Part shown: positions 2,182-3,639 of the stretch, piece by piece
Numbering within the stretch: position 1 is the first letter of the stretch
Layout: each line of letters starts with the position of its first letter
Source of the DNA: Bacillota bacterium
GTDB lineage: Bacteria > Bacillota > Sulfobacillia > JAJZYS01 > JAJZLH01
Direction of reading: 5' to 3'
NCBI GenBank assembly: GCA_021850485.1
Contig: JAJZLY010000017.1
Span: 1-11,157 of the forward strand
Length of the DNA: 11,157 nt
The notes under the pieces: model-generated
Told to the model about the DNA's origin: nothing
Databases searched by the model: none
Seen by the model: the letters and a program-made list of their open reading frames with translations, nothing else
Position numbers and translations under genes: made by a program

Positions 2182-3639
2182 ATGAGCCATCAGGTGTCGG
2201 AACTCCTCAGCCGCTATGTATCCAATACCGATCGCAACGTCTACACCATCACCAATTTGCCGGAAGAAGTCATCGCCGTCATCTTTGCCTATGTGTCTCG
2301 CTCCCAGGCCAGCTTCCGGGATAATCTCGTGCATCTGCTGACGGACCAGGAGCTGGCCGAGGTGGCGCCTACGGCTGAAGATTCAACCAGCCAGCGGCGG
2401 GTGGCGCGGGCCAGTGAGCAGGCCCGCAAGTTCCACGAGAAGTGGGTGGTCGGATACGGCCACTCCTCGGTAGCCGAACATGGCGTCGTGCACGTAGGCA
2501 TCGAGCGTATCTCCAGACTGGCTTCGGCCGCCCTGGAACTCGCCAATCCGTTTCTCTCTTTTACCGAATACTCGCAGCGCTACCAGCGCCCGGGACGAGA
2601 CCGCTATGTACTGCCAGCGGAACTCGATCGCTGGCCTGTGCAGAAAGAAACCTTAGAAGGGCTTCAGCACCTGACCTTCGATGCCTACGAGCGAATCGAA
2701 GAGGGACTGTTCGGTTATCTGGCCGAAACCAACCCGCCCCGGGCCAACGAGGACGACGAGGCCTATCGGCGGCGCATCGGCCGGCTGGGGTTTGAAGATG
2801 CCCGCTACGTTCTGACTTTGGCTGTGGAGACCAACCTGGGTATGACCGCCAACGGCAGGGCGCTGCGGGACGGACTGATTCGCCTGCTGGGCGATGCGCA
2901 CCTGGAGGTCCAGAGCCTGGCGGCCGCCATCGAGCAGGAGGCGGCCCACGTCTTGCCCACCTTGCTTCGCCACATCAAGGCACCGCTGCTGCGGCCGGCA
3001 ACCGGCGCCCAGATGGCTAGTAGCGCGTCCGCCCCAGCCGTGCGGCTTGTGGCAGCCACCGGTGACCATGATCCAGATCCGTTGCAGGCGGCCCTGACGC
3101 TGATGGTCGGCGGCGCCGCTCTGGCCAGCGGGCGCCAGGCGCCCCAGCTGGCGATCGAGACCTACCGCCAGCTGTTTCAGGCCACAACAGACTACGATCT
3201 GATCCCTGACGAGGCGCATCAGGTCAGCTACCGATTTCAACTGCAGATTTCCGAAGCGGCGTGGCACCAATTGCTCCGCCATGTGCGGCGGATCACGTTT
3301 GTCGCGGCACCGCCAGGTGTCGCCGGCGGCGTTGTCGTGCCGCCGACCATTCGCCAAGCTGGGCTGGAGCCGATGTTTCGAGCCACCGTGCGGGCGGCCG
3401 AGAAGGCGCACGCCGAGATCGCTGCCGTCAGCCCAGAAGCTGCCCATTATGCGGTCACGAATGCCCATCGCCGGCTGGTCGAAGCCACGGTCTCGCTGGG
3501 GGAGATGGCTCACCTGATGCGGGTGCGAGGCGCTGCCAATGCCCAGTGGGAGATCAGGGATCTGGTCACGGACATGGCCGGTGAAGTCGACCGCGTGCAC
3601 CCAGGACTGCTGGCCCCCTTGATTGGACCTGCTCAGTGA
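2182..3639 (+). CDS. Tandem ThyX-like protein (FAD-dependent thymidylate synthase family, divergent)
   Basis: Canonical ThyX uses FAD, NADPH and methylenetetrahydrofolate to make dTMP from dUMP and is about 220-250 aa. This protein is 485 aa and appears to contain two ThyX-like halves. The first (about 20-250) has GHSSVAEH at 92-100, a segment SFTEYSQRY ending at Tyr134 and an ETNLGMTANGRAL stretch. Aligned to the ThyX signature RHRxxSxxxxSxR, Ser126, Ser131 and Arg133 are kept but RHR is replaced by Ala121-Asn122-Pro123. The second half (about 290-475) has WHQLLRHVRR with Arg366-His367 and an ending with AQWEIR at 454-459, like the ThyX C-terminal helix, but no SQRY. The two halves keep different parts of the signature, so they may form one composite site or have taken another role. 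GGGG at 2170-2174 lies 7 bases before the ATG. The gene overlaps ymdB by 4 bases. Family membership is fairly sure; thymidylate synthase activity is not. Confidence 0.8.
   Translation: MSHQVSELLSRYVSNTDRNVYTITNLPEEVIAVIFAYVSRSQASFRDNLVHLLTDQELAEVAPTAEDSTSQRRVARASEQARKFHEKWVVGYGHSSVAEHGVVHVGIERISRLASAALELANPFLSFTEYSQRYQRPGRDRYVLPAELDRWPVQKETLEGLQHLTFDAYERIEEGLFGYLAETNPPRANEDDEAYRRRIGRLGFEDARYVLTLAVETNLGMTANGRALRDGLIRLLGDAHLEVQSLAAAIEQEAAHVLPTLLRHIKAPLLRPATGAQMASSASAPAVRLVAATGDHDPDPLQAALTLMVGGAALASGRQAPQLAIETYRQLFQATTDYDLIPDEAHQVSYRFQLQISEAAWHQLLRHVRRITFVAAPPGVAGGVVVPPTIRQAGLEPMFRATVRAAEKAHAEIAAVSPEAAHYAVTNAHRRLVEATVSLGEMAHLMRVRGAANAQWEIRDLVTDMAGEVDRVHPGLLAPLIGPAQ

Follow-up and report, generated by a model that had tools for sequence, protein, structure and literature searches.

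Flavin-dependent thymidylate synthase (ThyX or FDTS; PF02511, TIGR02170) is a homotetramer in which each active site is built from three subunits, as reviewed from the structures of the Mycobacterium tuberculosis (Mtb) and H. pylori enzymes (PMC6514825). In Mtb numbering, subunit A contributes the RHR motif (residues 95-97) and R199, subunit B contributes S71 and R190 to FAD, and subunit C contributes R87, S105, R107 and the lid residue Y108 around dUMP (PMC6514825). Dihydrofolate reductase (DHFR) is commonly absent from organisms that use ThyX, because the enzyme yields tetrahydrofolate directly (PMC1971073). Elongation of a gene by internal duplication has been described for other enzymes such as HisA and HisF, in which two modules of a single chain were duplicated in tandem and then diverged (PMC7284861). 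Here we describe a ThyX-like protein in which two such domains are fused, encoded within a window of 11,157 nucleotides, which is the whole stretch of Bacillota DNA that was analysed (contig JAJZLY010000017.1).

Gene structure and fold of the two halves

The gene begins with an ATG at position 2182, preceded by a GGGGG ribosome-binding site, and ends with a stop codon whose last base is 3639, in agreement with the coordinates, strand and length of 485 amino acids given in the initial annotation (Table 1). The minus strand holds stops in the register of tandem thyX, and a spurious open frame opposite the gene was ruled out accordingly. Sequence recognition of the neighbouring genes gave the order recX, rny, tandem thyX, ymdB, dipeptidase and leucyl aminopeptidase. 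The YmdB-like reading frame starts with a GTG that overlaps the stop codon of tandem thyX by four bases (GTGA, 3636-3639), which suggests a rny-thyX-ymdB operon with translational coupling of tandem thyX to ymdB. The order rny-tandem thyX-ymdB-dipeptidase was also found in six near relatives (L033, L034, L063 and L068-L070), and was absent around the remaining homologue loci compared.

Table 1. Features of the tandem thyX gene, in positions of the window (aa, amino acids of the encoded protein; fractions are counts among 78 aligned tandem proteins).
Feature	Position	Strand	Observations
Tandem ThyX-like gene, 485 aa	2182..3639 (stop included)	+	Two PF02511 matches; no other Thy1 gene in the genome
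N half, aa 1-265, Thy1	2182..2976	+	95.7 bits; VIA Z 13.1; dN/dS 0.09; dUMP-side (subunit C) and FAD-partner (subunit B) residues
N-half G93-H94-S-S96-V-A-E-H100	2458..2481	+	S96 = Mtb S71 (FAD, subunit B role); G93, H94, S96, E99 and H100 78/78
N-half A121-N122-P123 replacing RHR	2542..2550	+	Arg at R95 position 0/78, His at H96 position 0/78 N halves
N-half T128-E-Y-S131-Q-R133-Y134	2563..2583	+	S131, R133, Y134 = Mtb S105, R107, Y108 (dUMP, subunit C role); T128, E129, S131, R133 and Y134 invariant, 78/78 N halves
N-half N224-G-R226	2851..2859	+	R226 = Mtb R190 (FAD, subunit B role); N224 and R226 78/78
Linker between halves, aa 266-284	2977..3033	+	Low pLDDT block; against the closest relatives, 32-47% identity, dN/dS 0.5-0.6
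C half, aa 285-485, Thy1	3034..3636	+	56.2 bits; VIA Z 15.7; dN/dS 0.13-0.16; flavin-side (subunit A) residues
C-half R366-H367-V-R369	3277..3288	+	= Mtb R95-H96-R97 (FAD and dUMP, subunit A role); R366 78/78, H367 77/78, R369 78/78
C-half R449	3526..3528	+	= Mtb R199 (dUMP, subunit A role); 78/78

The Pfam Thy1 profile (PF02511) matched the protein twice, each half scoring above the gathering cut-off of 24.8 bits, whereas the score against the TIGR02170 equivalog, at 78.1 bits, fell below the cut-off of 87.9. An AlphaFold2 model of the tandem protein, computed from an alignment of 78 sequences, had a pLDDT of 88.6 and a pTM of 0.88, and its top Foldseek matches were the ThyX proteins of M. 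tuberculosis and T. maritima. When the halves of the model were superimposed separately with VIA-align, the C half (residues 282-485) matched T. maritima ThyX (3g4a) over 188 residues with an rmsd of 2.4, and the N half (residues 18-273) matched Mtb ThyX (3gwc) over 202 residues with an rmsd of 4.4. The predicted fold of both halves is hence that of ThyX. A single-sequence phmmer search of the PDB did not detect the C half as ThyX; a C half unrelated to ThyX was ruled out by its Pfam score of 56 bits and the fold comparison (Z 15.7). The initial annotation had named a second half without ThyX homology as the outcome that would overturn its reading, and both profile and structure instead match ThyX in that half. 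In comparisons with the nearest relatives, both halves were found to be under purifying selection and the linker far less so (Table 1).

Allocation of active-site residues to the halves

Both halves of 78 tandem proteins, including that of the window, were aligned with T. maritima ThyX, 26 single-domain relatives and Mtb ThyX, the sequence of which was verified against 3gwc. The four subunit A residues are retained in the C halves (Table 1); amongst the N halves R97 occurs in 38 and R199 in 16, and neither R95 nor H96 occurs in any. The subunit B residues S71 and R190 are found in every N half, the latter also in 37 C halves. With regard to subunit C, S105, R107 and Y108 are present in all N halves and R87 in 66 of them, and a deletion removes the R107-Y108 stretch from each of the 78 C halves. 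The N half also retains, in 78 of 78 proteins, the positions of H69 and R172, which we take to be among the ThyX site residues. At the position of Q103 the tandem proteins have an invariant Glu, as does T. maritima ThyX. Roles A, B and C are thus all represented across the two halves at 77 to 78 of 78, with the exception of R87.

The contiguous motif RHR-x7-SxR is found in neither half of the window protein, the C half having RHxR without SxR and the N half SxR with Ala-Asn-Pro in place of RHR. Across the 78 tandem proteins the C-half motif takes the form RHxR in 26 and RHR (once RNR) in 52. Amongst the single-domain relatives, L026-L028, L031 and L032 carry an insertion of about 20 residues between the RHR and SQRY parts, and L017, L020 and L021 have RSR in place of RHR. 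In the N half, S126, S131, R133 and the Ala-Asn-Pro at 121-123 are as the initial annotation described them, and H94, S96, R208, N224 and R226 are retained in addition. Its account of the C half, namely that R366-H367 and the AQWEIR segment are kept and the SQRY segment is lost, was borne out, but it had overlooked R369, the third residue of the RHR motif, and R449.

A further 24 tandem members were identified on viral contigs, some of them plasmid-like, with 22-40% identity. All 24 retain R366, H367, R369 and R449 together with H94, S96, S131, R133 and R208, and exceptions were confined to Y134, R226 and N224 (one member each) and H100 (five members). Judged on these alignments, the partition of site residues between the halves is not a product of chance, since it is invariant over 78 sequences and near-invariant in the 24 phage and plasmid homologues.

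Distribution of the family and supply of dTMP

Homologues with 25-83% identity to the window protein were found in the Bacillota, Chloroflexota, Thermodesulfobacteriota, Dadabacteria and Myxococcota, the Bacillota including isolates of Thermoactinomyces, Laceyella and Marinithermofilum, and in several archaeal candidate phyla. One archaeal genome (G083) encodes two tandem ThyX genes (L083 and L090). The gene is also carried by plasmids in PLSDB, from Bacillus licheniformis and others, where it is annotated as an FAD-dependent thymidylate synthase; these include plasmids of 200-230 kb in Bacillus and Paenibacillus. The Paenibacillus rhizovicinus plasmid, at 228841 bp, is of the same size as the viral-collection contig of another homologue (L116), and the plasmids of this size class may therefore be phage-plasmids.

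In a tree of the separated halves, all N halves formed one clade and all C halves another, with an SH-aLRT value of 100 on the separating branch, which is consistent with a single old duplication behind the family. A recent duplication or an assembly artefact was ruled out, in that the two clades of halves extend across phyla and the same gene is found in two congeneric genomes.

The genome that encodes the window protein (1.61 Mb, 97% complete) was searched for a second Thy1 gene, ThyA, thymidine kinase and DHFR_1, and none was found; the initial annotation had proposed a check for thyA or a second thyX. Amongst 61 relatives of the same class, 23 encode the tandem gene, 32 a single-domain ThyX and six neither, and no genome encodes both. 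The chance of zero overlap under independence is 1.3e-11, a figure inflated by the kinship of the genomes. Four of the 61 encode ThyA, none of them together with the tandem gene. Within this class the tandem gene hence takes the place of single-domain ThyX from one genome to the next. One relative that is 99% complete (G006) shows no gene for ThyX or ThyA, whereas members of its own genus carry the tandem gene; this is probably an assembly gap, and it illustrates that absence from a draft assembly is no proof.

In all 36 genomes behind the homologue loci, the Thy1 genes are exclusively tandem (one genome has two). Genomes relying on tandem ThyX, cultured thermoactinomycetes included, show no other thymidylate synthase, ThyA being absent from 34 of the 36; the exceptions are a 101-bit match in G067 and a partial match of 65 positions in G093. 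The former, in Paenactinomyces guangxiensis (C11:359310-359969), is a divergent ThyA-like gene with a 317-aa frame in a genome that also encodes tandem thyX, and perhaps encodes a hydroxymethylase of biosynthetic or phage type. Thymidine kinase is present in many of the homologue genomes, but in neither the genome of the window nor its two congeners. On the gene content of its genome, the tandem protein appears to be the organism's only route to dTMP.

Proposed assembly, alternatives and comparison with known enzymes

We consider it very probable that the tandem protein is a working flavin-dependent thymidylate synthase, the homodimer of which acts as a pseudo-tetramer with two composite active sites. 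A ThyX gene would have been elongated by tandem duplication, with role A falling to the C half and the other two roles to the N half. In the assembly of two chains, C halves would occupy positions A and D and N halves positions B and C, and one chain may supply either A and B or A and C. Two of the four sites would be complete, a single C half and both N halves contributing to each so that both chains take part, and the other two would be dead. In a tetramer of D2 symmetry with subunits labelled A-D, site A uses A, B and C, site B uses B, A and D, site C uses C, D and A, and site D uses D, C and B; with the halves placed as above, sites A and D would be complete, whilst sites B and C would be without essential contacts. 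No site could be formed by one kind of half, because three subunits are needed and only two N halves and two C halves are available. Given this geometry, the observed partition is one of few block divisions that leave two sites intact. Were eleven residues allotted to the halves at random, 6 of the 2^11 outcomes would fit any such division; this is a rough yardstick and not a p-value, as the residues are not independent. At each live site FAD, dUMP and methylenetetrahydrofolate would be bound, and dTMP and tetrahydrofolate would be the products. It is unlikely, though conceivable, that the two vacated pockets of an obligate C2 pseudo-tetramer have turned regulatory, for instance by binding dTTP or flavin, and provide a built-in allostery.

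Points that count against this reading are the spare copies kept in some lineages (R97 in the N half of 38 proteins, R190 in the C half of 37), the shortfall against TIGR02170, and G006 with no visible thymidylate synthase. Since the contiguous motif is missing and the equivalog cut-off is not reached, the protein is placed in the Thy1 superfamily without being filed as a canonical ThyX, though it would be expected to work like one. The initial annotation had entertained either a composite site or a nucleotide or flavin sensor, and the former is strongly supported, in that the retained residues are split by the subunit that supplies them and the ThyX fold is predicted for both halves. A catalytically dead descendant of ThyX that senses dUMP, dTMP or flavin would be in keeping with the lack of a complete motif in either half and with the TIGR02170 score. 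It was rejected as highly improbable, because purifying selection maintains the role residues together, invariant across bacteria, archaea and phages, and because neither this genome nor its two congeners has a visible alternative source of dTMP, be it another thymidylate synthase or thymidine kinase; the genome-by-genome substitution for single-domain ThyX argues in the same direction.

The better conservation and higher Pfam score of the N half could indicate that activity, of a new kind, resides in this half by itself, the C half lending structural support to the assembly. This reading is highly improbable, as R366, R369 and R449, which contact flavin and dUMP and would be needless in a scaffold, are among the few residues invariant in the C half. 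A change of chemistry at the composite site, either in the group transferred or in the substrate (UMP, as in the PolB-type UMP/dUMP methylases, or a hydroxymethylated product), is highly improbable, though some of the phage relatives might show it. In its favour, a UMP/dUMP methylase with the ThyX fold (PolB) does exist and its structures (4p5a and 4p5b) match the model, members are encoded on large contigs of phage-like character as well as on Bacillus plasmids of about 200 kb, and an invariant Glu replaces Q103. That Glu is shared with T. maritima ThyX, however, and cellular genomes offer no candidate source of dTMP besides the tandem gene, which means that dTMP must be the product of at least the members encoded there.

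If the protein is indeed a composite-site thymidylate synthase, it represents a clean natural case in which two fused copies share out, by subunit role, an active site that takes three subunits to build. The division apparently arose once, anciently, and later became fixed in bacteria, archaea and large phages alike. Profile-based annotation of the tandem proteins is probably right in name, yet blind to their architecture.

A literature search on tandem, fused or duplicated ThyX retrieved nothing that describes this architecture, nor a paper showing homologues of this length to be ordinary thymidylate synthases, the finding that according to the initial annotation would have told against it; a chlamydial enzyme remains as a lead and possible precedent. 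The ThyX of Chlamydia trachomatis is reportedly a flavin-dependent thymidylate synthase studied biochemically by Griffin et al. in 2005, and may be about 530 aa long. Should it prove to be tandem, it would be the nearest precedent with shown activity, and the novelty of the present protein would be lower. Thy1 of Thermus thermophilus (PDB 6j61) has a C-terminally enlarged ThyX fold, but at 270 aa and from its title it is a single Thy1 with an extra C-terminal domain that is not a second Thy1. The 491-aa protein A0A7D4 of Microcystis phage LMM01, an example of a phage tandem ThyX, aligns with the model across both of its domains (TM 0.62), but shares only 18% identity over the alignment and is named simply 'thymidylate synthase'.

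Relative to ThyX itself (3gwc and 2af6 of M. tuberculosis, 1o26 of T. maritima), the tandem protein has the same fold in both halves, all of the three-subunit contacts of the FAD/dUMP site, and the genomic role of the thymidylate synthase. It differs in being composed of two fused domains, neither of which holds the motif whole, in the RH-x-R form seen in Bacillota members, in its score below the TIGR02170 cut-off, and in its expected symmetry, which would be C2 for a homodimer with a pair of sites, against D2 for the four-site homotetramer. HisA and HisF have other folds, and it is the divergence of the tandem ThyX halves that follows the subunit roles of a three-subunit site. A single chain of this kind would allow the roles of ThyX to be mutated one by one, which is impossible in the homotetramer.
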